From a virus, in IMG/VR virus record IMGVR_UViG_3300025276_000179, positions 1 to 26,850 of that record: 26,850 bases of DNA. The stretch is one strand, 5' to 3'. Positions within the stretch are counted from its first letter, which is position 1, and each line of letters opens with the position of its first letter. This document shows, piece by piece, positions 4,031-20,900 of this stretch. The translations under genes were made by a program, and so were the position numbers. The notes under the pieces were generated by a model. The model was not told the origin of the DNA. It worked only from the letters and a program-made list of their open reading frames with translations, and made no database searches.

Positions 4031-5638
4031 TTACCAAGCTTCGGGGTCATATGTCGCCCAATCCATGCTATATGGATCATCATTCACAGGCACGGGAATA
4101 TTCTCTAATCCGTTGTCGTAAATCCCAAATGGCAATACATCGTCATCAATCTCTTTCATACGTTGATCGAATAACATTTGCTTTATGTTCACATCGGTCA
4201 TATCACCGAAAGACTGTGTGCTAACAAAATAACCGAACATCACCAGATTCATCATTAAGTCATCGTGGTTGCCAGTCGAAGCTTCGAAAGATGTTCCTTT
4301 AGATATGAAAGTCGACACCTCCATAATAGTATTCTCATCAACGAGATCTAGTTTATGGTTTTCTATGATATCCTTAATTGACGAACACCCGATTCGTTTA
4401 ACCTTTCTGTCCATACGAATACCAATGGAGTCTGCCTTGATTGCCGACTCTAAGTGGATGTTCTCATATTCTAAATCTTGATACAACCCGACACATACTA
4501 CCATTCCCTGATCGTTGTTTTCAATAACAGCATATGCTTCATTATATGCAGTGGCGTATTTGTAAATGATATTAGGATATAGTATCGGGGATATTCTATT
4601 GTTGCGATAAACGCAGACTTGTTTAAATGGCTGTACCGAAACATCGAAGATATTAAATGTAGAATAATCCTGGCCACGCCCTTGACAAACATCTACGGTC
4701 ATGATATACTGGTGATCTTCGATTGTGTCTTCATAGACTAATAAGTCACCGCCTTCTAATCTTCTAATAGGTTCTTTAGCACGTAAGTCAAGAAGTACTT
4801 GACCCTCAATAAGGGTGTTACCAGTACCAAAGAATGTATTACCAAACTCTTGGTCAAACTGTAACTGCGAAGTGTTTGCAATAGTTTGTGCTTTCCACTT
4901 CTCATCTCTGCCAGGCACATCCCACCAATCCACACGGAATGGTTTATATTCATTAACCTTCTGTACTGCACCTTCCCATATCTTCTGGTAAGTGTTACCG
5001 ATACCGTTTGCGGTACTTGTTATGATAACCTTTGTGTCCACACCAGATGAAATTACTGGGTATGTTGAAGTGTAGAACTCGGCCGCATTCTCTACGAATG
5101 CAAACTCGTCTAGGAACAATAGGTTAACCGACATACCACGAATAGAAGACCCAGACGTTGCTGCAGCAATGATTCGTGAGTTGTTAGAGAATTCTATAGA
5201 ACCTTTGTTGAGTGCCTTACATCCCGGCTGGAGGAAGAATGGGAGATTCTCTAACATCAATGTCACACGGGATAGCATCTCACGTGCAGTCGCACCTTTG
5301 TTAGCAAGTATGGCAATAGTCTTCTCTGGGTGAAATAGAGAGTACCATAGGATATAACCTACAGACGATATAGATTTACCGGACTGTCGACAAGCAAGAA
5401 CGATGGAGAATCGATTATCATTGAAGTGGTTAAACATCTCCTCTTGATAATCATATAACTTAAAAGGTACCAGACCTCTATCTAGGTGCACGACCTTAAC
5501 ATACTTTTTACAAAAGTAAGCAGGGTTATTCATACACTTGCGATATTCGCGCAGTTGCTTTTTATCCCACTCCTCAGACACACCGTCGCGTTTGACCTGT
5601 GGGTTTCCGAGATAAGAATTTTTAGTAAAAGATGCCAT
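4031..5638 (-). CDS. 17: Terminase large subunit gp17 (packaging ATPase-nuclease)
   Basis: 535 residues; T4 gp17 is 610. The N-terminal ATPase shows a Q-motif region (LYDYQEEM, about 61-68), Walker A CRQSGKS (83-89), Walker B LLFLDE (173-178) with the catalytic Glu, and coupling motif TSTANG (207-212). The C-terminal RNase H-like nuclease has the acidic residues expected for two-metal cleavage: TVDV with D316, GQD with D324, an IENN motif near 372-375, and NHDD with D459/D460. The enzyme pumps concatemeric DNA into the prohead through the portal and cuts it at headful. No intron or frameshift interrupts it. Only a weak ribosome-binding sequence precedes it, so translation may depend on reading through the small upstream gene. 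Confidence 0.97.
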   Translation of the reverse strand: MASFTKNSYLGNPQVKRDGVSEEWDKKQLREYRKCMNNPAYFCKKYVKVVHLDRGLVPFKLYDYQEEMFNHFNDNRFSIVLACRQSGKSISSVGYILWYSLFHPEKTIAILANKGATAREMLSRVTLMLENLPFFLQPGCKALNKGSIEFSNNSRIIAAATSGSSIRGMSVNLLFLDEFAFVENAAEFYTSTYPVISSGVDTKVIITSTANGIGNTYQKIWEGAVQKVNEYKPFRVDWWDVPGRDEKWKAQTIANTSQLQFDQEFGNTFFGTGNTLIEGQVLLDLRAKEPIRRLEGGDLLVYEDTIEDHQYIMTVDVCQGRGQDYSTFNIFDVSVQPFKQVCVYRNNRISPILYPNIIYKYATAYNEAYAVIENNDQGMVVCVGLYQDLEYENIHLESAIKADSIGIRMDRKVKRIGCSSIKDIIENHKLDLVDENTIMEVSTFISKGTSFEASTGNHDDLMMNLVMFGYFVSTQSFGDMTDVNIKQMLFDQRMKEIDDDVLPFGIYDNGLENIPVPVNDDPYSMDWATYDPEAW

Positions 5639-5655
5639 AATATAAGTGTATCGTC

Positions 5656-5829
5656 TTATTCGACAATATCACATTCCTTTTTACCTTCCCTTCTAAATCG
5701 CTTGTTGTATCCTTTCTTGATATTAGCAGAAACTCCTGCCTTTGTCAAGTAACAATACCATTGCTTTGCATTAGTTAAAACATCAAACTCTGCGCCACTA
5801 TTCATTTTAATCTTCGGATTCTTCTTCAT
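5656..5829 (-). CDS. Small basic protein, 57 residues, unknown function
   Basis: The ATG at 5829 overlaps the TGA of the oxygenase gene (ATGA) and the frame ends with TAA at 5656, 17 bases before the gene 17 start. The protein is strongly basic: KKNPKIKMNSG at the N-terminus, then FDVLTNAKQWYCYLTKAG, and NIKKGYNKRFRREGKK near the end. The aromatic YCYL segment and a lysine/arginine cluster suggest RNA, DNA or acidic-protein binding, but no family is recognised. The tight coupling on both sides and the gap-filling length support a real gene. It could be a cofactor of the oxygenase or of the packaging motor; this is inference. Confidence 0.75.
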   Translation of the reverse strand: MKKNPKIKMNSGAEFDVLTNAKQWYCYLTKAGVSANIKKGYNKRFRREGKKECDIVE

Positions 5830-6374
5830 CGTATAAAGACCTGTATAGATTTTCTTATGGGAGCATCATGTCTTGTCGCTGTTACACCATGCAGTATCTT
5901 ACCTCTCTGGAATACTGACATTCCTAGATCGGGTTTGATTGCAGTGGTTAATGTTGCACCGTCCATCCTACATACAAAGTAACCACCATAGTCGTCCTGC
6001 CAATCATCATTTAGGTATATAGACGCTGATGAACTATGACCACTATCTTTGTGCCAGTTGAGACCGAACTTACTTTCTCCTTCATAGTACATTATACTAT
6101 AATCAGAAGGATTTTTACTAGTACCAAATAATTCTACACATTTATTTATTATAGGGTTGACAATCTCCCCATCGCATAGTACAATGAGCCTTGTGTAACC
6201 CTCTACATCCTTTATAAGATCTTCTGGCCAATCATCATTAACTACTCTTGGGAGGTTTTCTGAAGCTTCTTTTACATAATCAAGTATCTTTTCATACACT
6301 TCTGTAGTAAATGTATTATCAGTTATTAGTAGTTCTTGATCTGCTCCTTTTCTATGTGCTACTATCTTCGTCAT
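5826..6374 (-). CDS. 2OG-Fe(II) oxygenase (prolyl-4-hydroxylase-like) between genes 16 and 17
   Basis: 182 residues from the ATG at 6374; a TTG two codons upstream is less likely. GAGGA lies about 11 bases ahead. The fold signature is complete: H108-K-D110 (NWHKDSG) and H162 (KILHGVT) as iron ligands, and R174-x-S176 (IRKSIQVF) for 2-oxoglutarate. A GGYFVCR strand lies between them, as in prolyl-4-hydroxylase and AlkB-like enzymes. It should couple 2-oxoglutarate decarboxylation to hydroxylation or demethylation of an unknown protein or nucleic acid. The gene start lies inside gene 16, and its TGA overlaps the ATG of the next small gene (ATGA). It is therefore embedded in the packaging operon and expressed late with the motor. 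Such oxygenases are frequent in marine T4-like phages, but their substrates are not established. Confidence 0.85.
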   Translation of the reverse strand: MTKIVAHRKGADQELLITDNTFTTEVYEKILDYVKEASENLPRVVNDDWPEDLIKDVEGYTRLIVLCDGEIVNPIINKCVELFGTSKNPSDYSIMYYEGESKFGLNWHKDSGHSSSASIYLNDDWQDDYGGYFVCRMDGATLTTAIKPDLGMSVFQRGKILHGVTATRHDAPIRKSIQVFIR

Positions 6375-6753
6375 ATTCAATTATGTCCTCATCAGCCGCG
6401 CCCAATAGCATACGCTGGAGATCTGTCGTAGACCCCACAAATAGATTATTGTTTGTAGTACCCCCACTAGACGATTCGCTAGGAGCATCTTCTTTGGTAA
6501 TTTCTTTCTGCTTTTTATTCAGATCCATTAACTTATCGTTAACGTCAGAGATACCTTTGATCATACCAGAAAGAACTTCGAACGCACGAGGGTGTTCTGA
6601 CTCTCGCGCAACTTCAATCATCAACTCTAAAGACTCCCGACCCTTTTCGATTAGGTCGTAGTAAGTCTCTCTTGAATATTCATAATCTGTAGTTATATTC
6701 TTAGCCTGCACATCATCGACCACGGCAGGGACATTGCTTGAATCACTCATCAT
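6352..6753 (-). CDS. 16: Terminase small subunit gp16
   Basis: 133 residues from the first of two tandem ATGs; T4 gp16 is 164. The motif DYEYSRETYYDLIEKGRESLELMIEVARESEHPRAFEVLSGMIK is conserved in T4-like small terminases and forms the central helical oligomerisation region. It is followed by DKLMDLNKKQKEI and an acidic, Ser/Gly-rich tail ending in DEDIIEYDED. gp16 binds DNA as a ring and regulates the gp17 motor. Gene 16 starts 7 bases after the gene 15 stop. Its 3' end overlaps the oxygenase gene by 23 bases, whereas in T4 it runs directly into gene 17. Confidence 0.9.
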   Translation of the reverse strand: MMSDSSNVPAVVDDVQAKNITTDYEYSRETYYDLIEKGRESLELMIEVARESEHPRAFEVLSGMIKGISDVNDKLMDLNKKQKEITKEDAPSESSSGGTTNNNLFVGSTTDLQRMLLGAADEDIIEYDEDSST

Positions 6754-6760
6754 GTATTAC

Positions 6761-7534
6761 CTAATTATTTGGCAAGATTATATCAGTATTAAATCCATAG
6801 TCACCGTCTGGACTCACGTCTATAGGTGTTGGTGTAGTATTTATAGTTTCCAGAAGAGTGTCGCCTTCCGGAGTTGTGAGATTCAAATTGGTGTTTACTT
6901 CACGAATAATCGGAGAAGTGAGTTCAGGGCCATAGAAGTTAACTTTCATTTCAAAGTTCATAGTGTATATAATAGTACGTCTCTGCTCTACAGGGCCTTC
7001 AAAATCATCTTGAAAGTCTAACCCACTTAATACTATTGGAACGTCTTCTTTGATATCTGGTTGATCAGCAAAAGGTTTTACTGTGAGAGTATATTGTGGT
7101 GCGAAATATGGAATTATTTGTTCAACAACCTGTAACGCGTCGTCTTGGGACTTAGCATATATGGAAAGAGAAAACGAAATATTATATGGAACGCCAACAT
7201 ACATCTTACGTTGTGAGGCATTATCCGAAGATACTATACCACCGAAACCATTTACTTTAGGTAACTGGCGTACTGCATCATATGCAATAGAAGTAATTTC
7301 AAAAGACATACGTGGAAGTTTTATAGCAACTCTACGTTCTGCTTCCTCTCCATTGCTCATCTCTTCTAGACGTTCTATAAACGATCTCTTTGGAGCATAT
7401 GATAAAGGAACCTTGACTTGAGACAATACCTTTCCTGCTGAGTCTGTTCTCAAAACGTGTAGATCATTAAATAGTGAACCGAATACGGCAACACAAGTAC
7501 GGACACGTTTGTGGTAGAAGTGACCTCCCATCAT
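6761..7534 (-). CDS. 15: Tail completion / sheath stabiliser protein gp15
   Basis: 257 residues, close to T4 gp15 (about 272). The N-terminus GGHFYHKRVRTCVAVFGSLFNDLHVLR and the following KVPLSYAPKRSFIERL are typical of gp15 in T4-like phages, as is YGVP/VGVPYNISFSLSIYAKSQDDALQVVEQIIPYF. It caps the tail tube and sheath as a terminator ring so that the tail can join the head. Two Met codons lie in tandem at the start; the first overlaps the gene 14 stop and either could serve. A late-promoter box lies inside the 3' end of this gene (6838-6845) and could give gene 16 its own transcript. Confidence 0.92.
   Translation of the reverse strand: MMGGHFYHKRVRTCVAVFGSLFNDLHVLRTDSAGKVLSQVKVPLSYAPKRSFIERLEEMSNGEEAERRVAIKLPRMSFEITSIAYDAVRQLPKVNGFGGIVSSDNASQRKMYVGVPYNISFSLSIYAKSQDDALQVVEQIIPYFAPQYTLTVKPFADQPDIKEDVPIVLSGLDFQDDFEGPVEQRRTIIYTMNFEMKVNFYGPELTSPIIREVNTNLNLTTPEGDTLLETINTTPTPIDVSPDGDYGFNTDIILPNN
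6838..6845 (-). promoter_or_regulatory. Late-promoter box inside the 3' end of gene 15
   Basis: An exact TATAAATA reads on the minus strand within the gp15 coding region, about 85 bases upstream of the gene 16 start. It would allow separate late expression of the packaging genes 16 and 17. Because it is inside coding sequence, chance occurrence is more likely than for the intergenic boxes. Confidence 0.5.
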
Positions 7535-9209: not shown

Positions 9210-9217
9210 TATTTATA
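9210..9217 (-). promoter_or_regulatory. T4-type late promoter, downstream member of a tandem pair
   Basis: TATAAATA on the minus strand, about 27 bases before the gene 13 ATG. It is the better placed of the two boxes for gene 13, giving a leader of roughly 15-20 bases if initiation is T4-like. Confidence 0.78.
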
Positions 9218-9221
9218 CGTT

Positions 9222-9229
9222 TATTTATA
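9222..9229 (-). promoter_or_regulatory. T4-type late promoter, upstream member of a tandem pair
   Basis: TATAAATA on the minus strand, 12 bases upstream of a second identical box (9210-9217). It lies between the terminator and gene 13. Confidence 0.7.
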
Positions 9230-9296: not shown

Positions 9297-12200
9297 TTAG
9301 TTAACAATAGTACCGTTTACATCATAAACATCGATACGGTAGTGCGAAGGTGATTGACTACCTAATGAACCAGCATCTCCAGAAGAAGCAACGTGTAAGG
9401 TTGAAGCAACTTCTGTTTCGTCTATAGAGATAGTACCTGTTACAGGGTCATAAGCGATACATATCCCACCAATCAATATTGACTTGGCCCCATCGATTCC
9501 GCCAGCAATTGCTTCGGACTTAGCAGTTGCAATACTTGCAGTAGTTGAAGTAGCATCCGCCTTAGTTGCAAGACTTGCAGTAACAGTAGATGCAAAGTTC
9601 GCATCATCTCCTAGAGCAGCAGCTAGTTCGTTAAGAGTATCTAACGAAGCAGGAGCAGCATCAATTACACTAGCAACCGCAGCTGAACCAACACCATCCG
9701 CATAAGATTGCGCGGCAGCTTGAGCAGCATCTGCTTTAGTCGTTGCATCAGCACTTGCAGTAGAGATCGCAGAAGCTTGAGCAGCATTTGACTTACTAGT
9801 CGCATCAGCACTTGCAGTAGAGATCGCAGAAGCTTGAGCAGCATCTACTTTAGTCGTTGCATCAGCACTTGCAGTAGAGATTGCGGCAGCTTGAGCAGCA
9901 TCTGCTTTACTAGTTGCGTCAGTCCCAGCTGCAGCTTGCGCGGCATTTACTTTACTAGTTGCATCAGCAGCAGCAGTTACTTCAGCGGCAGACTGTGCAG
10001 TGGAGATTGCACTTGTCGTACCTAAAGTATCAGTGTAACCAGAAAGATCTACACCAGCAACACCTGAATCAACATATGCTTTAGTTGCCGCATCTGTACC
10101 ACTCGTTGGCGTTCCAAGATTAGAAATCTTGTTTCCGTCCATGTCAACATCAGCAGTCATCTGAATGTCAGTTGAACCTGAAGAGGTGCTAATACCAGAG
10201 ACCTGATTTTGCAGTATAGCAATTGCTTGGTTGTTAATAGTTTCAGCAGAAGTCGCACGAGTTGTTTCGGCAGTTAAGTCAACTTGACTTGCCTTATCAT
10301 CAAGAGCGGTAACATCTGCCTTAGTAGCAAGTGCGGCAGTAGTTGCAACGTCATCTGCCTTAGTACCAATTGAAGCAGTAACAGTTGATGCAAAGTTTGC
10401 GTCATCTCCAAGGGCAGCAGCCAACTCGTTAAGAGTATCTAGAGCAGCAGGAGCAGCATCTACAACATTAGCGACTTCAGTAGTAATTGCTGAGTTCATC
10501 TCTGTAGTAGTTGAGTATGGAGTCAAATCTGTAGAAGGAATTGCAGCGATAGCGGCAGTTCTAGCAGAAGTCTCAACAGCAATAGCAGCAGTCGTCTGTA
10601 CAGTTGTTGAGTACGGAGTTAAGTCAGTTGCAGGAATTGCAGCAATAGCAGCAGTTCTAGCAGCAGTCTCAGCAGCAATAGCAGCAGTCATACCTGAAGT
10701 ATCAGTGTAACCAGAAAGATCTACACCAGCAACACCTGAATCAACATATGCCTTTGTAGCAAATACTGAATCGTCTACAGTATACACTGGAGAAGTTGTT
10801 ACACTAGCGTTCCAGAAATATGTTTTATTTGCCCAATAGTCTCCTACTACAAGAATACCACCAGAAAGATCTGATAATTTAGGAGTCAACGGCCAATCGC
10901 CACTGTTCAGCTGAGGATTGTCAATAGATCCAATTAAAGTTGGAGTACTTAACATATTATAAAGATAAACTTTACCTGCTCTAGAATCACTAGAACCATC
11001 ACCAGTATCGCCTCTTTCAGCACTTACAAATAATGTTCCGTTAGATATTTCAACACCTCTACCATAGGAAGAGTCTTCCGAAGAACCCATACCTCTTTGT
11101 GGATTTACTATAGAAGAAATGTAGGAACCATCTGTCGCGGAGTAAATATAAATTGCGCCAGAGTGGCCACTTGGAGTTTGACCTATAGAACCTTTAGTAC
11201 TTGAAGCTCCAACAACATAATAGTTATCATCCGAAGTGGTAACCAAACCAAAAACACTAGTATCAGATGTGTTTGGGTTATCTAGAGTGTGTATTAAAGA
11301 ACCATCATTTACGTTAAATACAAACACTTTACCACCAGAACCAAACTGATCACCATATGCAAAAGGTGCTCCCACGAGAACCTTATTTCCATGTGATGAT
11401 ACACCGTCCATCTTATCTAGTAAGTATCCAGCGCCAGAAAATTTAGTATAAACTGAAGGGTTTGGATTAGCTATCTTTAGAATCTGATCACTACTAATGT
11501 CATAAACATAAACTGCTCCATTTTCAGAATCCGCTGTATGATCAGAAACAATAACTTTGTCACCGTTAATCGCTACAGACTTACCGAATTCTTTATCTGA
11601 ACCAGAAAAATCAACTCTTGACTTTTCAGCAACTACTGAACCATCAGTTGTTGAATAAACAATAAGTTTTCCCTGACCAGCAAGAACATAATAATCATCG
11701 TTTAATGCTGAAGAAGCACCTAATTTAGCCCAATCTGAACCATTGTAAGGATTTGTGTCTGCAATGAAATAATCTTGATTTACAGACAGATCTTTCCAAT
11801 AAACTCCATATCCCCAAGATCCTTGATTCGACTGACCTTCATAAGTTGCAAAAATTCCTGTCCCATTAGTTTGTACCGTTGTAATAGTACCTCCTTGTGG
11901 CCCACTAGGAAGAGTTTGATATGCGCTATTTACATCCCAAGTCGTTTCGGTAACATTCGCGGAAGAAATTCCAGTTCCAAAGTCTTCTGGTTGTACCGCA
12001 GTATCAGCAAGAGCACCTTGAGCGGCAGTTGCCTTAGTTGCAAGAGCAGCAGTAGTTGCAGCATCATCCGCCTTAGTCGCAAGAGCAGTAGTAGTTGCAG
12101 CATCATCAGCCTTAGAGGCAAGACTAGTAGTAACAGTAGATGCGAAGTTTGCATCGTCACCTAATGCGGCAGCTAGTTCGTTCAACGTATCCAATGCGGC

Positions 12201-15200
12201 AGGAGCAGCGTCTACCGTAGCAGCAACTACTTGGTCTGCATAAGACTGAGCTTCTGACTTAGCAGTTGCAATAGAAGAATCCATTTCAGCAGTAGTTGAG
12301 TATGGAGTCAAGTCAGTTGCAGGAATTGCAGCAATAGCAGCAGTCATACCTGAAGTATCAGTGTAACCAGAAAGATCTACACCAGCAACACCTGAGTCAA
12401 CATATGCTTTTGTAGCAAATACAGATTGGTCTACAACATAATTCGTAGTAGTGTTTAAACTTGCGGTTACTTTAAATGATGCAAGCATATTGCCACGAAC
12501 CTGATTCCTTGTAACAACTATGGCACCATCAACAAAAACGGCAGCACCAAAAAGGTTGCTTTCAAGAATTGCAGCTCCAGCATCATCTCCGCCAAAAATT
12601 ACACCATCATCAAATGCAGCTTGTTGTACCTCATGAGGAATTTCTCCGATATAACTACCATCGGTGGTATTAAAAAAGTGTAATGTTCTACCGTTTATTC
12701 TGAAGTCAGACTGACCATAAGTACCAGACGAATTATCTTGACCTTCTTCATACACTACCAAAGTATCAGTATTTTGATCAAGTGAGATTTTAGCACCAAA
12801 ATTAGTGTCTTTAGATCTTAATCCTGAAGGTAGATTATATGAGTTAGTAAAGGTTCCAGTATTTACATCGAATTCTTCCACCGAATGATAAGTATTGGAT
12901 GTTCCATTACCGTCTCTGTTAGCAAAATAATACTTCCCGTTAACGAAAGCATTAGTCCCAGCCAAAATCCACATATAAGCATCACCTAAGCTAAACGTGG
13001 TTTCTTCGGTTGTCATTCCAGAATCAAAACGATATAATTTTGGTTCATATACTGTCGCATATTGAGAATTAGTTGACTCTACTACATAAACCTTTCCAGC
13101 GGTTGGGTCTGTAAAAATAAAGTCTCCGAAGTTTTTACCGTCTACGGGTTTTATAATCGATCTAACAAGACTACCGTTATGATCAAATACTTGGACAGCG
13201 CCCGAATTATCAGTGCTTGATGTTCGATGATAAGAATGACCAACGTATATGTAATTATCATCTACAGCCAAGCTACGGGCATCCGTATATCCACCACTTT
13301 GCCAAGACCTAGTGTCTATTGTAAAGTTAGTCTGATAAGTTGCTCCACTAGAATCTAGTGTATAGACATAAAGTTCGGAAGTCTGATTGTATGCACCAGC
13401 TTTTAAAACGACTAAAGTATTATTAGACTCACTTGGGTTTAAAGCTATTAGATTACCCCAAGTATTATGTTGGACATAGGACTCAGGATTGGGTATCCAA
13501 TCTATTATATCTCCAGAATCGTTATATACAATCACCAAACCTTCAAAAGATCCCTTTGTGTGAGAAGTATTTCCCCAATTAGAGGCGTTATTACTTGGAG
13601 CCAAAGCATTCTTGAAAGCGGATACAGCAAATGATCCATTATGAACGGACTTGTTATTATTTGCTGGGAGATTTGGTAATACAGCACCAGCATCAATTAC
13701 CGATTGGAAGTCAGCATTGTTAAAGTCATGTGCAGACATGCTTGGGACAGTCCAGTCGTAAGCAGTAGTTGTACTAGACACTAATCCAGTCGATAAATCA
13801 GCAGGTTGCAATGCCGTATCAGCGAGAGCACCTTGAGCGGTAGTTGCAACGGCACTAGAATCTGCCTTAGTAGCAAGAGCAGTAGTGTTAGTAGCAATAT
13901 CAGCAACCGCAGCATCAAGAGCAGTAGAATCTGCCTTAGCGGCAAGACTAGTAGTAACAGTAGATGCGAAGTTTGCATCGTCACCTAGAGCAGCAGCCAA
14001 CTCGTTAAGAGTGTCTAGTGCGGCAGGAGCAGCATCTACAGTTGCAGCGACTTCAGCAGTAATTGCAGTATTCATTTCCGCAGTAGTTGAGTAAGGAGTC
14101 AAGTCAGTTGCAGGAATTGCAGCAATAGCGGCAGTTCTAGCAGCAGTCTCAGCAGCAATAGCAGCAGTCATACCTGAAGTATCAGTGTAACCAGAAAGAT
14201 CTACACCAGCAACACCTGAGTCAACATATGCCTTCGTAGCAAACAATGAATCGTCTACTCCAAAAGAACTGCTTGATGATGTTGTTGGGACTATAGCACG
14301 TATTGCGCTATCATCAACGTTAAGAATAGTTGATCCTGAAAGAGCAGTAAAAATTGGACGACCAGTAATGCCGATAGCTTTTACTAAGTTTCCGTTTGTG
14401 ACATCAAATACGAAAAGTTTACCAGTAGCGCCTCCGGCGAATTCGTTTGCCATAGCGAAACCGTAATTACCATCAATGGCTATAGTACCATTAAATCTTT
14501 GACTACCGCCTCCTTTTAGGCCTAACTTCTTCAGCGTAGTTGGTTCGGGATTCTCAAATGTGGATACATAAGAGTAATCTGACACATTAAACACATCTAT
14601 TGCTCCAGGCGCGTCATTTAGGGGCCCGCCATTCTGAGCAAATCTGACTACTAACAAATACTGATCGTTTGCAATCAAGTTTTCGCCAAAGTACTCATCC
14701 TGAGTATATGCAGATGGAGATGTTAAGTTTTCAAGAACTATAGAAAAAGTTGTCAGATCAACTACACTAACTCTACCTCTATTTTGATCATAGTGTTTGT
14801 GACCACAGAATAGTTTGTCTCCGGAAATTGTAAAGTTTCCACCTATATACTCTCGATTCAAACTATTTAACAAAGTACCATCGATATTATACAAATGTAT
14901 GTAATCAGGCAAATCGAATCCAGAACCGACAACAATCTTATCTTCTCCATAGAATTCTATGTCTGCTTGATAAGAACCATGATCAGCTGGAACGAAAGAG
15001 TAAAGTAAAGAACTATCTGTTAATGAGTGAATTTTAAGTCCTCCAGAAGCACTATCGCCTGGATTTAACACAGCAATTTTATCACTACTCATTGTTATTG
15101 CGGAAAGTTCATCGACACTAATTGAAAATTGCATATTAGTGGGATCAGACATAGGATAAACTTCCACACTTCCGGATACGTGAAAGGCGAAGTGAGTATC

Positions 15201-17846
15201 ATTCGCAAAAAAGTCCGCTTCTCGTTCAGCTGACCGGTTCAAAATTATCCCATCGCTTATTACGTCCTGAGACCAATCAGAAACACTAGTATTAATTGTT
15301 GTAATACCAGTTCCAAAGTCTTCTGGTTGTACCGCAGTATCAGCAAGAGCACCTTGAGCAGTGGTTGCCTTACTAGCAAGAGCAGCAGTAGTTGCAGCAT
15401 CATCAGCTTTAGTCGCAAGAGCAGTAGTAGTTGCAGCATCATCAGCCTTAGAGGCAAGACTAGTAGTAACAGTAGATGCGAAGTTTGCATCGTCACCTAG
15501 AGCAGCAGCCAACTCGTTAAGTGTGTTTAATGAATCTGGCGCGGTATCAATTACATTTGCAACGGCAGTATTTACAGCAGTATCAATATCAGATTGAGTT
15601 AAAAGATCTGAAGTATTCGCTAATTCTACCCAATTACCAGCATGAGCAAAGTAACCTTTACCTGTCGCATGAACATGAGCAAACATACCATGATAAGTAG
15701 TTGCGCTTGGTAAGTCCGCTAATGTTGAGTACATGTTGCCGAATAATACCTTATTTCCACTCATATCTAGGTCAGAACCAGTAACGTCTACGCCAGCAAT
15801 TGCAGTATTCATTTCAGCAGTAGTTGCATATGCAGATAAGTCCACACCAGCGACAGCACTATCAATCACTGTTTGATCAACATTTAAAGTTGTAGTTGAT
15901 CGTAATTCAGCACTAAACGATACTTGTTGCCATCGTGGGTTGGCGTTGTAAATTTCATCGAATACTATAAGACCAGAATTTGTCATAATAGACACATTGA
16001 AAGAGTTACTCTCAAACCATTCTATTTGATTCCAATTAGCTTGATCTGTACCTTCTTGGTTCTGATTTATAATATATCCATCACTCATTGCCTGGGATGG
16101 ATTAGAAGATCCTATAAGATTTCCAGTCGAAGTATCATAAAAATGAATTGATCGTCCAATCAATCGGAAGCTATCTGTCCCCCATTCTCCAGTATTATAA
16201 CTACCCTGTTCGACCACAGATAAAGTTCCAGAAACTTTATCAATATGCATACTCTGACCCCAGTTGGTGTTTGAAGTTCTAGGGATAGGCAATAATGTTT
16301 TATCTAAGACTCCTGTGGTTATATTAATTTTCCACACAGCATTCCATATTCCTGTGGGATAATTAGTACCGTTTTGACTATTATTAACTACATAAAGGTG
16401 ACCATCATAAACTTGCGCCATATTAGGGCCGTAATGAATTGTTGCTTCTGTATCACCACCATAAGGAAAATCATGAGTATAAAGTAAAGAAGATCCATCT
16501 GAATTATAAACTTTCATATATGGATTATAATTACGATCTGTATAATTGCTAGCAGATGAAGCGACAACTATGAGCATATCATTATCAAACCGTACCTGAG
16601 CGCCAAAATTGTCCTTAGCGCTACCGGCAGTATTTGTTCTAATTAAATTTCCAGAAAAATCATAAACTGAGAATCCACCAGAGTCATGACCATTAGAACT
16701 GTCCAAGGGAGCTCCCAAAAAGAGATGTTGATTACTCATGCAAACAGCTCCGTCTACACCGACACCTGACTGTCCTAACCAATGTTGACTGGTTTTTGTA
16801 GCGCCCGTTGAATCTAAATCATAAAACGCCACTTTTGTATTTCCAGTGCCTTGATAGTTTGTCATACCCGCAGTGATAATGACCATTTTTGACCCATCTG
16901 GACTCACTTCTGATGATTTGATGTCTGTGGCGATACCGTATCCGCCAGGAATTTCGGTAAGCGAAGTATCACTCCAAACTACATCAACCATATTACCGTC
17001 TGAATCAAAAATTAATACAGCGCCAGTCTGATAGATGCCATCTGGATTTCCGAGATTATTTGTACTTTCTACACTGGGCGTATCAAAACTACCATAGTAC
17101 TTAGAGACGGCACCATTTGTGAATTGCCAGCTGGCAAACCGCGAAAGAGTCAGGGTACTAAATGTACCAGTAGTTGATGTTTGACATTGTTGTGTCGGTG
17201 TAGAAATCTGAAATCCATTTCCGGCCGATTCGGGATAATCATTATGATTTTGAAGTAATTCGTTCCAAGCAGGAAGCATTTTATTGGACACCGATTCGTA
17301 AGTTTGAGTCGCCCAACTATAATTATTAACAGTGGTTTCTGTGAAACCAGTTCCTTTATCCATAACTGCTAATGTACCGAGATCTCCAGGCTGTACCGCA
17401 GTATCAGCGAGTGCGCCTTGATTAAAAGAGGCCACACCATTTGTGATTTGTGCAGTAACCGCATCCAAGTCTGCTTGTTGTGCGGCAGTATCAGCAAGAG
17501 CACCTTGAGCAGCAGTTGCTACGCCACTTGCAAGAGTTTGTTGAATCTGCGTAATTGCAGTTGAATTATTGGTGATTAAAGTTGAAATGTCACCGTCTTC
17601 ACTTTGGAATAAAGCGACAATCTCTTGGAGTGTATCCAAGTGTTCCGGAGAAGTGCCAAGGATTGTATCTACCTGTGCCTGAAGTGCTGCGAGGTCAGTC
17701 GCGACTGCTTCGTTCACAGCATCAGTGATTGCTGGCAGTAAAAGTTTTCCTTCTTCGGTAATGACTATTTGGCCGCCGACTACTACTTCACCAACGATGT
17801 CGACACCATTTTGTATTCTAAATTTCTTGTTATTTGTAGAACTCAT
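9297..17846 (-). CDS. Giant modular tail fibre with four beta-propeller-like domains (2849 residues)
   Basis: The N-terminus (FRIQNGVDIVGEVVVGG) and C-terminus (LGSQSPSHYRIDVYDVNG) are typical of marine T4-like phage fibres. Coiled-coil-like linkers separate four beta-rich modules at about residues 169-655, 850-1197, 1361-1805 and 1967-2355. The modules repeat blade-like units (GAVYVYD..., FGKSVAINGDKVIVS, LFLGAPLDSSNG) as in FG-GAP or PQQ-like beta-propellers. Each is preceded by QGALADTA(V/L)QP and most are followed by FATKAYVDSGVAGVDL. Modules 1 and 3 resemble each other; 2 and 4 share their flanking linkers. Residues about 703-740 hold a His-rich knob (AHVHATGKGYFAHAGNW). Five LDTLNELAAALGDDANF-type units recur. 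The likely role is a surface-exposed, host-binding trimeric fibre. No enzyme active site is recognised. It is preceded by a 68-base gap with a hairpin and ends in a strong terminator. Confidence 0.8.
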   Translation of the reverse strand: MSSTNNKKFRIQNGVDIVGEVVVGGQIVITEEGKLLLPAITDAVNEAVATDLAALQAQVDTILGTSPEHLDTLQEIVALFQSEDGDISTLITNNSTAITQIQQTLASGVATAAQGALADTAAQQADLDAVTAQITNGVASFNQGALADTAVQPGDLGTLAVMDKGTGFTETTVNNYSWATQTYESVSNKMLPAWNELLQNHNDYPESAGNGFQISTPTQQCQTSTTGTFSTLTLSRFASWQFTNGAVSKYYGSFDTPSVESTNNLGNPDGIYQTGAVLIFDSDGNMVDVVWSDTSLTEIPGGYGIATDIKSSEVSPDGSKMVIITAGMTNYQGTGNTKVAFYDLDSTGATKTSQHWLGQSGVGVDGAVCMSNQHLFLGAPLDSSNGHDSGGFSVYDFSGNLIRTNTAGSAKDNFGAQVRFDNDMLIVVASSASNYTDRNYNPYMKVYNSDGSSLLYTHDFPYGGDTEATIHYGPNMAQVYDGHLYVVNNSQNGTNYPTGIWNAVWKINITTGVLDKTLLPIPRTSNTNWGQSMHIDKVSGTLSVVEQGSYNTGEWGTDSFRLIGRSIHFYDTSTGNLIGSSNPSQAMSDGYIINQNQEGTDQANWNQIEWFESNSFNVSIMTNSGLIVFDEIYNANPRWQQVSFSAELRSTTTLNVDQTVIDSAVAGVDLSAYATTAEMNTAIAGVDVTGSDLDMSGNKVLFGNMYSTLADLPSATTYHGMFAHVHATGKGYFAHAGNWVELANTSDLLTQSDIDTAVNTAVANVIDTAPDSLNTLNELAAALGDDANFASTVTTSLASKADDAATTTALATKADDAATTAALASKATTAQGALADTAVQPEDFGTGITTINTSVSDWSQDVISDGIILNRSAEREADFFANDTHFAFHVSGSVEVYPMSDPTNMQFSISVDELSAITMSSDKIAVLNPGDSASGGLKIHSLTDSSLLYSFVPADHGSYQADIEFYGEDKIVVGSGFDLPDYIHLYNIDGTLLNSLNREYIGGNFTISGDKLFCGHKHYDQNRGRVSVVDLTTFSIVLENLTSPSAYTQDEYFGENLIANDQYLLVVRFAQNGGPLNDAPGAIDVFNVSDYSYVSTFENPEPTTLKKLGLKGGGSQRFNGTIAIDGNYGFAMANEFAGGATGKLFVFDVTNGNLVKAIGITGRPIFTALSGSTILNVDDSAIRAIVPTTSSSSSFGVDDSLFATKAYVDSGVAGVDLSGYTDTSGMTAAIAAETAARTAAIAAIPATDLTPYSTTAEMNTAITAEVAATVDAAPAALDTLNELAAALGDDANFASTVTTSLAAKADSTALDAAVADIATNTTALATKADSSAVATTAQGALADTALQPADLSTGLVSSTTTAYDWTVPSMSAHDFNNADFQSVIDAGAVLPNLPANNNKSVHNGSFAVSAFKNALAPSNNASNWGNTSHTKGSFEGLVIVYNDSGDIIDWIPNPESYVQHNTWGNLIALNPSESNNTLVVLKAGAYNQTSELYVYTLDSSGATYQTNFTIDTRSWQSGGYTDARSLAVDDNYIYVGHSYHRTSSTDNSGAVQVFDHNGSLVRSIIKPVDGKNFGDFIFTDPTAGKVYVVESTNSQYATVYEPKLYRFDSGMTTEETTFSLGDAYMWILAGTNAFVNGKYYFANRDGNGTSNTYHSVEEFDVNTGTFTNSYNLPSGLRSKDTNFGAKISLDQNTDTLVVYEEGQDNSSGTYGQSDFRINGRTLHFFNTTDGSYIGEIPHEVQQAAFDDGVIFGGDDAGAAILESNLFGAAVFVDGAIVVTRNQVRGNMLASFKVTASLNTTTNYVVDQSVFATKAYVDSGVAGVDLSGYTDTSGMTAAIAAIPATDLTPYSTTAEMDSSIATAKSEAQSYADQVVAATVDAAPAALDTLNELAAALGDDANFASTVTTSLASKADDAATTTALATKADDAATTAALATKATAAQGALADTAVQPEDFGTGISSANVTETTWDVNSAYQTLPSGPQGGTITTVQTNGTGIFATYEGQSNQGSWGYGVYWKDLSVNQDYFIADTNPYNGSDWAKLGASSALNDDYYVLAGQGKLIVYSTTDGSVVAEKSRVDFSGSDKEFGKSVAINGDKVIVSDHTADSENGAVYVYDISSDQILKIANPNPSVYTKFSGAGYLLDKMDGVSSHGNKVLVGAPFAYGDQFGSGGKVFVFNVNDGSLIHTLDNPNTSDTSVFGLVTTSDDNYYVVGASSTKGSIGQTPSGHSGAIYIYSATDGSYISSIVNPQRGMGSSEDSSYGRGVEISNGTLFVSAERGDTGDGSSDSRAGKVYLYNMLSTPTLIGSIDNPQLNSGDWPLTPKLSDLSGGILVVGDYWANKTYFWNASVTTSPVYTVDDSVFATKAYVDSGVAGVDLSGYTDTSGMTAAIAAETAARTAAIAAIPATDLTPYSTTVQTTAAIAVETSARTAAIAAIPSTDLTPYSTTTEMNSAITTEVANVVDAAPAALDTLNELAAALGDDANFASTVTASIGTKADDVATTAALATKADVTALDDKASQVDLTAETTRATSAETINNQAIAILQNQVSGISTSSGSTDIQMTADVDMDGNKISNLGTPTSGTDAATKAYVDSGVAGVDLSGYTDTLGTTSAISTAQSAAEVTAAADATSKVNAAQAAAGTDATSKADAAQAAAISTASADATTKVDAAQASAISTASADATSKSNAAQASAISTASADATTKADAAQAAAQSYADGVGSAAVASVIDAAPASLDTLNELAAALGDDANFASTVTASLATKADATSTTASIATAKSEAIAGGIDGAKSILIGGICIAYDPVTGTISIDETEVASTLHVASSGDAGSLGSQSPSHYRIDVYDVNGTIVN
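9751..9921 (-). repeat. 57-bp tandem coding repeat, three copies
   Basis: The motif beginning GCACTTGCAGTAGAGA (plus strand) starts at 9751, 9808 and 9865, an exact 57-base period. It encodes the 19-residue unit AISTASADATTKVDAAQAS near the C-terminus of the giant fibre, an Ala-rich and probably helical spacer. Confidence 0.92.
10621..10770 (-). repeat. Linker repeat following propeller module 4
   Basis: This is the partner of the repeat at 14101-14250. Both follow a 'B-type' propeller module, which supports duplication of a two-module unit. Within the linkers, an exact 43-base core recurs four times, at 10025-10067, 10697-10739, 12353-12395 and 14177-14219. It encodes SGVAGVDLSGYTDT and neighbouring residues. 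Confidence 0.92.
11971..12163 (-). repeat. Linker repeat preceding propeller module 4 (copy 2)
   Basis: This is the second copy of the 193-base linker found at 15307-15499. High base identity between the linkers contrasts with strong divergence of the propeller modules they flank, which suggests recent duplication or gene conversion. Confidence 0.9.
14101..14250 (-). repeat. Linker repeat following propeller module 2
   Basis: Bases 14101-14220 match 10621-10740 at 118 of 120 positions by direct comparison, with transitions at the 30th and 120th base. The region encodes FATKAYVDSGVAGVDLSGY and the ten-residue unit ETAARTAAIA. A third, shorter version at about 12311-12410 lacks one 30-base unit. 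Confidence 0.92.
15307..15499 (-). repeat. Linker repeat preceding propeller module 2 (copy 1)
   Basis: This 193-base coding stretch matches 11971-12163 with only about 7 differences counted by eye, including a run of more than 80 identical bases. The offset of 3336 bases is a multiple of three. It encodes the (T/A)TTALATKADDAATT...AQGALADTAVQPEDFG linker. Confidence 0.9.
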
Positions 17847-17914: not shown

Positions 17915-20900
17915 TTATGCGTCGATATACGAAGCGGATACTGATACTACTGCACCAGCAATAGATGCGGTATATGTTAATTCAACACTTGAACCATTTA
18001 CCTGAACGTCGGTATCACCAAGTATATTATTACCTGTGAATATAATACCGTACTCAGTTATATATGCTTCTGTTCCGTCATGGATAACTAGACATTCGCG
18101 AGTCTCGAATTCACCGTTGTTTTCTACAGTGACTACGTACTTAGCAGAACGAGTCATAGTCTTGTTGAATGCAGAAACTACTGTAGCAGAAGTTCCGACA
18201 ACAACATCGTTACCCTGTTCGAAGACTTTGATGTTATCAGCAAGAGTTTCAATACCGACCGACTTAGGATCTAGTACACCAACCGAGTTGGTAGACTGAG
18301 CGATTATTACTGCCTGTGTACCGACCGGAAGTGCAGCCATGAATGTAATTTGTTGAGAAACAGCATCAATCGAATAGTGAACCGATGGATCCTGAATAAC
18401 ACCACCAACAAATACCATTGCGTTAGCTTCTTGAGTGTAGAAGTCTATAGCGAAAGTAGACTGTGCACCGTCACCAGAAATCACTTGACGTTTTGCGTCA
18501 TTAAATGCTAATTCTTTAGGATCTACAAGTTCAATACCTGACCCATCTGTCTTAACACGAGCAACAAAACCTTCTTTACCAGCAATTGTTGAATCAGTGA
18601 CATCGGATAGTTCAGTAAATGCTTTAGAAGTATCTAATGAGAACACACCGTCTGTCTCAGATACCTTTCCTTCGCCAGCAACGTCAACTACAGATACCGC
18701 AGCGTGTACGCGTTCTGGAGTGAAGTATTTGTTAGAACTGTCTTCCGAAAGATCAGCAGTAGAGAATTGAGAGATATGTTGAGCAGCAAGATCTGAAACT
18801 AATTGTCCCTTGTTTACAGCATCAGCATCAGCAGTACCATTAGCAAGACCAGAAACTTTGTTTCCACCCATTGCTAGGTCGCCTGTCATAGAATCTCCAG
18901 ACTTCTGAACACGTCCGTCGATTTGAGTCTGTAGACCAGTATCAGCCGCAGCGAACTCGCCACGTACCGCAGTATCACCAGCGATTCGATCACTAATTTC
19001 TTGTGCAAGACCAGAAGTGTTAGTTGCGATGTCAGTTTGGTTCTGAGTGATCAGACCAGTTAGAGTACCATCAGCATTTTGGAATGCAGAAACGATCTCA
19101 GTCAATGAATCAAGAGCAGCACTATCAGTGTTTGAAGTGATGAAGTCGATTTGACCTTGTAGAGAACCTTCAACACCCTGTGCGCGAGATGATTCAGTGA
19201 CGATTGACTGTGCGTTAGTGTTGATTAAGACACCGTTAGCAACTTCAGCCGCAGTAGCGCGAGAAACTTCTGTTGCCAGGTTAGATGTTAATACACCTTC
19301 GACAGCAATAGCACGAGCAATTTCAGAATCTATCTGTGATTGCAAGTTAACATCACCAGCGACTCGATCGTCATCAGCAGATTTGATTGCAGTATCTAAC
19401 TTCTTGTCTGCATCGGTTAGAGACGTAGATAGATCAATAAAGTTAGTGTTTTCTGGAGCAGAGTATGTTCCATCAGCGTTTACTCCAGCAGCAAGTTGAG
19501 TTGCAGACATCTCTGATTCAAGTACTGTAGCACGTGTGTCTAGTGCGTTATCGGCAACTTGACGTGCAGTTGACTCTGTAGAGATCTTACTGTCTAAGAC
19601 GACATCAGCATTATCACGTAGAGTTGCTTCACCAGCAACGATACCGTCTGCGTAAATCTTAGCAGCAGCTTCAGCATCATCTGCTTCTGATTCTGCATAA
19701 GACTGTGCAGATGCAAGAACAGCTGCGTCACGTGCAGTATAGTCTGCTTGATCAGTAACACGATCTGCTGCGAGATCAGAACGGATTAGTGCGTCAGCAG
19801 CAGTACGTAATAAGATTTCTGAAGCAAGTGCGTCACTATCAGCATCAGCGTTAGCTTCAGCAGTAGTCATACGACCTTCGATTGAATCTACTTCACCGTG
19901 AATCTCATTGATTGCACCAGTGATGATTTGAGAAGTAGTATCGAAAACACCAGTACCTAACTTAGTTTCTAAGTTATCGATGTCACTCTCGTTAACTGTT
20001 AGACGACCACCTTGTAGTGTCTGTTCAGTTTCTAGAGCAGTTGCTCGTGACTCAACAGCAGTTGCACGTCCTTCGACAGCATCCATTTCACTTTCTAGAG
20101 TAGATACCTTAACAGCTTCTGCGTCTAGTTCAGTGTGGATCTCGTTGATTGCAGCAGTAACATCAGTTGCTACAGTAGCAAGTACTGTAGTACCCATCTG
20201 AGTTTGTAGAGTGTCAACATGACCTTCTTCTGTAGATACACGTGATTCTAGAGATGTTGCACGACCTTCTACTGCGTCCATTTCAGACTGTAGAGTATCA
20301 ACATTTGCTTCTTCTGTAGTAACACGAGCAGCAAGAGCAACAGCGGATGCAACAGCTGCATCCATTTCTGTATGCAATTCATTGATTGCTCCAGATACGT
20401 TAGTTTCCGCAGTATCGAGAGTAGCAGAACCTTGCTTGGTTTCTAAGTCAGTTGCGCGAGTTTCTAGAGAAGTTGCACGTCCTTCGACAGCAGTTGCACG
20501 GCCTTCGACAGCAGTTGCACGAGATTCTAAGTCAGTTGCACGTACTTCAACAGCGTCCATCTCTGTTTGTAGAGTATCGACGTGACCAGCTTCAATATCT
20601 AGTTCTGCGTGAATCTCATTGATTGCGGCAGATAGGTCAGTTGCAGTAGTTTCTAGAGTAGAAGAACCTTGCTTAGTTTCTAGTGAACTGATGCTTGCTT
20701 CATTAACATTCAAACGACCATTCTGAGTAACTTGTTCACTTTCTAGAGCAGTTGCACGTGACTCAACACCAGTAGATCTAGCTTCAACATCAGTTGCGCG
20801 AGTTTCTAGAGAAGTTGCACGTCCTTCGACATTAGTCAGTCGACCAGAGTTAGCAGTAATGATACCTTGAATATCTGAGTCAGCATCTTCAAACGCAGCA

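Follow-up and report, generated by a model that had tools for sequence, protein, structure and literature searches.

A 2-oxoglutarate oxygenase gene and a 57-residue protein gene as likely passengers between the terminase genes of an uncultured T4-like phage

Sullivan et al. (2010; PMC3037559) list four hot spots for Synechococcus-phage genes, and one of them is the stretch between gp16 and gp17, the genes for the small and the large terminase subunit (terS and terL). A hyperplastic hot spot from g15 to g18 is ascribed to Millard et al. (2009) in the passages of PMC2984593 that refer to it, and there the g15-g18 position is called unique to cyanophages. In marine T4-like cyanophages the gp16-gp17 hot spot carries zwf, gnd and PTOX, and the cyanophage records that we checked show gnd and zwf, among other accessory genes, ahead of gp17. 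In T2, terS and terL overlap. Stenotrophomonas phage Smp14 (DQ364602; L205:1265-1770) has 506 bases without an annotated gene between gp16 and gp17, and a search of this gap returned no convincing open reading frame and no tRNA.

Two further systems are relevant here. The 2-oxoglutarate (2OG) oxygenases are frequent in cyanophages: T4-like genomes carry one to five of them and S-SCSM1 carries 24 (PMC9602691). They belong to PF13640, have about 180-200 aa and are tightly packed in core operons, in S-SCSM1 for instance between the sliding clamp and clamp-loader genes of replication. The free-standing homing endonuclease genes of T4 are promoter-less insertions at gene junctions: mobE lies between nrdA and nrdB with overlapping stop and start codons, and the overlaps amount to 23 bases for mobA, 24 for mobC and 20 for segC (PMC2988022).

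The locus described below resembles all three systems. It shares the terminase junction, the variable accessory genes and the conserved flanks with the cyanophage hot spot, the family, size and tight packing of its oxygenase with S-SCSM1, and the promoter-less junction insertion with overlaps of at most 24 bases with the T4 genes. It differs in its cargo, since the slot in the group around phage C48C1 contains no zwf, gnd or PTOX and holds nothing, one lineage of 2OG oxygenases, a 57-aa gene or both, and we detected no nuclease domain in either gene, whereas the T4 homing genes encode nucleases.

Two additional genes between terS and terL

The stretch of DNA that was analysed (the window) is an IMG/VR virus record of 26,850 bases and forms part of the module of late structural genes in a marine T4-like phage. 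Its minus strand encodes, in this order, gp13, gp14, gp15, terS, the 2OG oxygenase, the 57-aa gene, terL and the tail sheath. Among named genomes, Phage C48C1 (OQ984149, Kyanoviridae) comes closest, with an 88% identical TerL; all other relatives are metagenomic fragments. The junction comprises the following features:

6761..7534, minus strand: gp15, tail sheath stabiliser, the upstream neighbour (PF16724, E 1e-64)
6352..6753, minus strand: terS (gp16), terminase small subunit, 133 aa (Pfam PF11053 DNA_Packaging, E 4.9e-7; phrog_445, E 4e-39)
5826..6374, minus strand: 2OG/Fe(II) oxygenase gene with ATG start, 182 aa, predicted prolyl-hydroxylase-like double-stranded beta helix (PF13640, 31.4 bits; model pLDDT 80.7)
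5831..6366, minus strand: approximate extent of the presence/absence indel of the oxygenase, absent from locus L088 (junction alignment; blastn break points 6367 and 5830)
5656..5829, minus strand: gene of the 57-aa basic protein, a family that dwells at gene junctions (55 IMG/VR loci, their contexts, a 14-sequence alignment and Berrie gp43)
4031..5638, minus strand: terL (gp17), terminase large subunit, 535 aa (Terminase_6N/6C: PF03237, E 1e-17; PF17289, E 2e-13)

A preliminary description of this DNA had placed a complete oxygenase and a small basic protein between the terminase genes, and its account of the gene anatomy is exact: terS and the oxygenase overlap by 23 bases (6352-6374), the oxygenase and the small gene share the four bases of an ATGA (5826-5829), and 17 bases (5639-5655) separate the small gene from terL.

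Elsewhere in the window, two giant tail-region genes encode 2849 aa (9297-17846) and 1968 aa (17915-23821). The larger one contains repeated 'ATKAYVDSGVAGVDLSGYTDTSGM' blocks, which cross-match other parts of the tail region at the DNA level. In five related loci (L006, L015, L035, L036 and L041) the stretch between gp15 and terS is 1.3 kb longer. We considered a hidden oxygenase gene there and rejected it, because the stretch is a C-terminal extension of gp15 of about 430 aa, from which the gp15 of the window is free. In L006 (4312-5592) the extension consists of DUF285 repeats (PF03382, E 4e-78), and in others an (EP)n linker precedes it.

Gene content and allele exchange at the junction

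The survey covered the 80 closest TerL loci in IMG/VR, together with loci found through the oxygenase, the small gene and a second, more distant TerL. As part of the loci was fetched with the oxygenase itself, the totals for the 101 distinct terS-terL junctions are counts and not frequencies: 78 are empty, with terS and terL overlapping or abutting, and 23 are occupied. The occupied junctions carry the oxygenase only in 18 cases (including L003 and L142), the small gene only in three (L088-L090, in the order terS-small gene-terL) and both genes in two, the window and L082, a contig that is 99.97% identical to it and perhaps not independent. Neither gene lies at the junction of phage C48C1 and of most IMG/VR loci, and the TerL-only search recovered the oxygenase in 11 of 80 loci. 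A third kind of gene was not found in the slot at any of the 101 distinct junctions. Since all four presence/absence states occur, the oxygenase and the small gene are not one unit but are gained and lost independently, and the joint inheritance expected of a two-gene cassette is not seen in these counts.

The clearest case is L088, which lacks the oxygenase although its TerL and gp15 proteins are 99.8% and 100% identical to those of the window. Alignment of the two leaves one clean extra piece in the window (about 6366..5831), which is the oxygenase. Together with the 23 occupied junctions this demonstrates accessory genes that vary among close relatives, as in the published gp16/gp17 hot spot. 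Mapped on the TerL tree, presence and absence require seven changes, at least six of them on supported branches, which may be gains or losses. In long contigs of the group, such as that of L145 (151 kb), no PF13640 match other than the slot oxygenase occurs; the contig of L041 (160 kb) contains none at all.

The conservation of the gene order, as considered in the preliminary description, holds in part. All 20 of the 20 close relatives of the oxygenase in IMG/VR (at least 41% identity) are located between terS and terL, so the insertion is neither peculiar to one genome nor randomly placed; most junctions, however, are empty and the small gene goes its own way. A role linked to packaging, in which the oxygenase modifies the terminase or a head protein, or repairs or demethylates DNA during packaging with assistance from the small protein, could draw on this attachment to one junction and on the translationally coupled overlaps. 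Nevertheless, we regard it as very unlikely: the oxygenase is missing from 78 of the 101 junctions and can be absent beside an almost identical TerL, the small gene is not inherited with it and usually resides at the nrdA-nrdB junction, and the terminase junction, as a general hot spot, takes up zwf, gnd and other genes in cyanophages. The 99.8% identity of TerL between a carrier (the window) and a non-carrier (L088) also makes TerL less likely as a co-adapted substrate of the oxygenase. We consider it rather likely that the two genes are unrelated passengers in the known gp16/gp17 insertion hot spot and not parts of the packaging machine.

The first passenger, the oxygenase, is bound to the slot, and its remoter relatives sit elsewhere. 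In the oxygenase tree a branch with support 58/92 has the slot sequences all on the same side, and 13 of the 15 form a clade with 97/92. This tree is compatible with a single entry into the slot, which is weakly supported at 58% bootstrap; the gene would probably have entered once in this phage group and then have been lost many times. Within the slot it has not simply followed its neighbours. L003 and L002 have nearly the same flanks (gp15 99.6% identical, dS 0.19; TerL 97.8%, dS 0.63), but their oxygenases are only 55% identical with a dS of about 2.5, and the oxygenases of L003 and L142 pair with that of the window (clade 100/97) in conflict with the TerL tree. The direct reading is that oxygenase alleles were exchanged between phages with nearly identical flanks. 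The likely route would be homologous recombination in the flanking terS and terL genes, which are conserved; divergent alleles would thereby replace each other. Searches with the oxygenases of the L034 and L038/L040 types returned almost only self-matches. Confinement to the slot would fit a function related to the slot, whereas freely roaming cargo need not show it. The window oxygenase is at most about 34% identical, over half its length, to that of any isolate and belongs to a lineage of its own that is restricted to the terS-terL slot. Such a lineage of predicted hydroxylases, kept to one slot and exchanging alleles there, is a mildly surprising feature of this new occupant of a known hot spot; the second is the wide spread of the roaming small gene.

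Active site, predicted fold and expression of the oxygenase

The oxygenase matches PF13640 with 31.4 bits, above the curated cut-off of 27, and the three iron ligands H108, D110 and H162 as well as the 2OG-binding R174 are found where the preliminary description had put them. The iron triad is invariant across 15 slot homologues and R174 is retained in 14 of them. An alignment of eight diverse slot oxygenases has 23 invariant columns, among them the triad. In the slot oxygenase of L157 (6001-6549) an isoleucine aligns to the 2OG-binding arginine and an arginine follows one residue further, which may alter the activity of this homologue. Pairs of oxygenases within allele groups have a dN/dS of about 0.18-0.29, i.e. 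they are under purifying selection. As homologues with conserved residues exist and the oxygenase is under purifying selection, the two genes of the junction are not a product of chance.

The AlphaFold model of the oxygenase (pLDDT 80.7, pTM 0.80) predicts a double-stranded beta-helix with Z scores of up to 15.8 to prolyl hydroxylases. The best structural match is the prolyl 4-hydroxylase (P4H) of P. putida (4j25; Z 15.8), the second-best is its complex with EF-Tu (4iw3; Z 15.4), and human PHD2 (EGLN1) reaches Z 14-15. The likeness to P. putida P4H and PHD2 comprises the predicted fold of the whole chain (Z 14-16 over 160-169 residues) and the same HxD...H...R active site; at only 13-18% sequence identity it is a likeness of predicted fold. 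The structural comparison with AlkB suggested in the preliminary description gave Z 13.8 (3khc), which is below P4H by only 2 Z units and level with many PHD2 entries. In the Pfam scan up to E = 1 the AlkB family model PF13532 did not match, and PF13640 and PF13661 were the only hits. The predicted fold appears somewhat nearer to the prolyl hydroxylases than to AlkB, and because these lead the fold matches and the AlkB family model finds no match, a protein hydroxylase is the better guess than an AlkB-type enzyme. DNA demethylation, as put forward earlier, is the weaker match to these data, and with it the DNA-modifying version of a packaging role loses ground.

Apart from a doubtful PHROG label, no nuclease family was found in the oxygenase with Pfam, PHROGs and NCBIfam. 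This label, 'DNA endonuclease V' (phrog_274), was set aside, as the match is nearly full-length while Pfam assigns PF13640. PHROGs 274 and 19810 both bear the label and match these 2OG oxygenases over nearly their full length; the label itself looks wrong.

Against an expectation of 2.0, the window contains eight TATAAATA motifs, and every one of them lies on the minus (coding) strand; none of 100 shuffles reached this number. The sites are:

27-50, 4011, 6838, 9210, 9222, 24293 and 25652, minus strand: all sites of the TATAAATA motif, a T4-type late-promoter-like motif
9210..9229, minus strand: two motifs upstream of the gp13-gp14-gp15-terS run, recurring at the equivalent place in many relatives
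6838..6845, minus strand: motif resembling a late promoter of the T4 type, located within the 3' end of gp15 at a distance of 85 bases upstream from terS, at the same place in L088, L016 and L157
4011..4018, minus strand: motif that separates terL from the tail sheath gene, recurring downstream of terL in most relatives

This distribution suggests a set of T4-type late promoters in an uncultured phage. As the motifs at 9210, 9222 and 6838 lie upstream on the coding strand, the oxygenase is probably expressed late together with the terminase and other virion genes. The link to the late stage that had been proposed thus receives some backing from the sequence; the step from there to packaging does not, even though probable late co-expression is what a packaging role would predict.

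The first passenger is then probably a 2OG/Fe(II) hydroxylase that is expressed late and folds like a prolyl hydroxylase. We infer enzyme activity and, from the predicted fold, a protein substrate, most likely a host protein or a virion protein made late, with no specific role in packaging. Swapping of alleles with an intact active site suggests a partner or substrate that differs from phage to phage or from host to host.

Two other functions have to be weighed against this. For cyanophage 2OG oxygenases a metabolic role has been proposed (PMC3037559, PMC9602691), in which the enzyme would lower or sense 2-oxoglutarate or oxidise a small molecule and thereby steer the nitrogen or carbon metabolism of the host; the abundance of these enzymes as cargo in cyanophages, above all in S-SCSM1, is in line with this. 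We consider it unlikely for the slot oxygenase, as its top structural neighbours are protein prolyl hydroxylases, its allele swaps and fast protein divergence better fit variation of a substrate or partner than a fixed small-molecule reaction, and late placement would be an odd timing for metabolic rerouting. Counter-defence or host takeover, with alleles swapped in the face of varied host targets such as translation factors or defence proteins, would account for the allele replacement between nearly identical phages and for a dN/dS several-fold higher than that of terL with retained active site; furthermore, EF-Tu is a binding partner of the P. putida homologue. Takeover is less often the task of late genes, and we rate this explanation as quite unlikely.

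The 57-residue family and the meaning of tight packing

The second passenger is a protein of 57 aa with a pI of 9.8, 14 K+R and 6 D+E. Over 14 sequences, which are 54-89% identical to that of the window, 25 residues are invariant. No match to nuclease families (HNH, GIY-YIG, LAGLIDADG) was obtained in Pfam, PHROGs and NCBIfam, a sequence search against solved structures found no match either, and the model (pLDDT 60) is too low in confidence for a fold search.

Relatives occur at 55 IMG/VR loci and in two contigs of bacterial metagenome-assembled genomes. In 36 loci the gene adjoins nrdB, 34 times between nrdA and nrdB and twice just before nrdB. Other sites follow a pair of clamp-loader (gp44) and exonuclease genes, or lie beside a 140-aa gene and a block that includes a HAD-type gene. 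The terS-terL home is restricted, among the loci found, to the group of the window. Arthrobacter phage Berrie has a weak relative, gp43, which is flanked by DNA polymerase I and ligase (42% over 52 aa, E 2e-4). The two bacterial contigs (L197 and L198; GTDB contigs JADHSL010000075.1 and PBYU01000009.1, assigned to Pirellulales and Gammaproteobacteria) have the order nrdA-small gene-nrdB and are probably phage contigs binned with bacteria. Judged from its differing junctions, the small gene appears to be mobile: it would be a roaming gene whose usual home is nrdA-nrdB of other phages, a site preferred by T4 mobE as well, and which arrived at terS-terL independently of the oxygenase.

The start of the small gene overlaps the upstream stop by four bases in 35 of 57 scored loci, and an ATGA overlap with nrdA is seen in about 30 other phage loci. 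The ATGA overlap with the oxygenase is therefore a habit of the small gene and not a sign of coupling to the oxygenase. The preliminary description had taken the tight packing as a hint to a function in packaging or late DNA, and this argument does not hold: the same ATGA recurs at nrdA, selfish homing genes of T4 have overlaps of 20-24 bases as well as coupled starts, and the junction is a published hot spot. The tight packing may instead be the residue of insertions at junctions that had to keep the downstream gene translated.

A bolder reading, which we put forward tentatively and with a low chance of being correct, is that the 57-aa family is a minimal, nuclease-less gene that repeatedly settles, often with an ATGA overlap, between genes of one complex or pathway (nrdA/nrdB, terS/terL, gp44-exonuclease and perhaps pol I/ligase). 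It would do so either as a tiny mobile gene of a new kind or because it regulates two-subunit phage enzymes or acts as their partner, and the oxygenase slot would be a place where protein hydroxylases made late by the phage exchange their alleles.

Conclusions drawn from position and tight packing can go astray: this gene order has the look of an operon with a common purpose, yet nearly identical phages reveal independent passengers. The small family consists of widespread, strongly conserved 57-aa proteins that favour the ribonucleotide reductase junction, and the slot lineage of the oxygenase offers natural presence/absence and allele pairs for probing the function of phage 2OG oxygenases.
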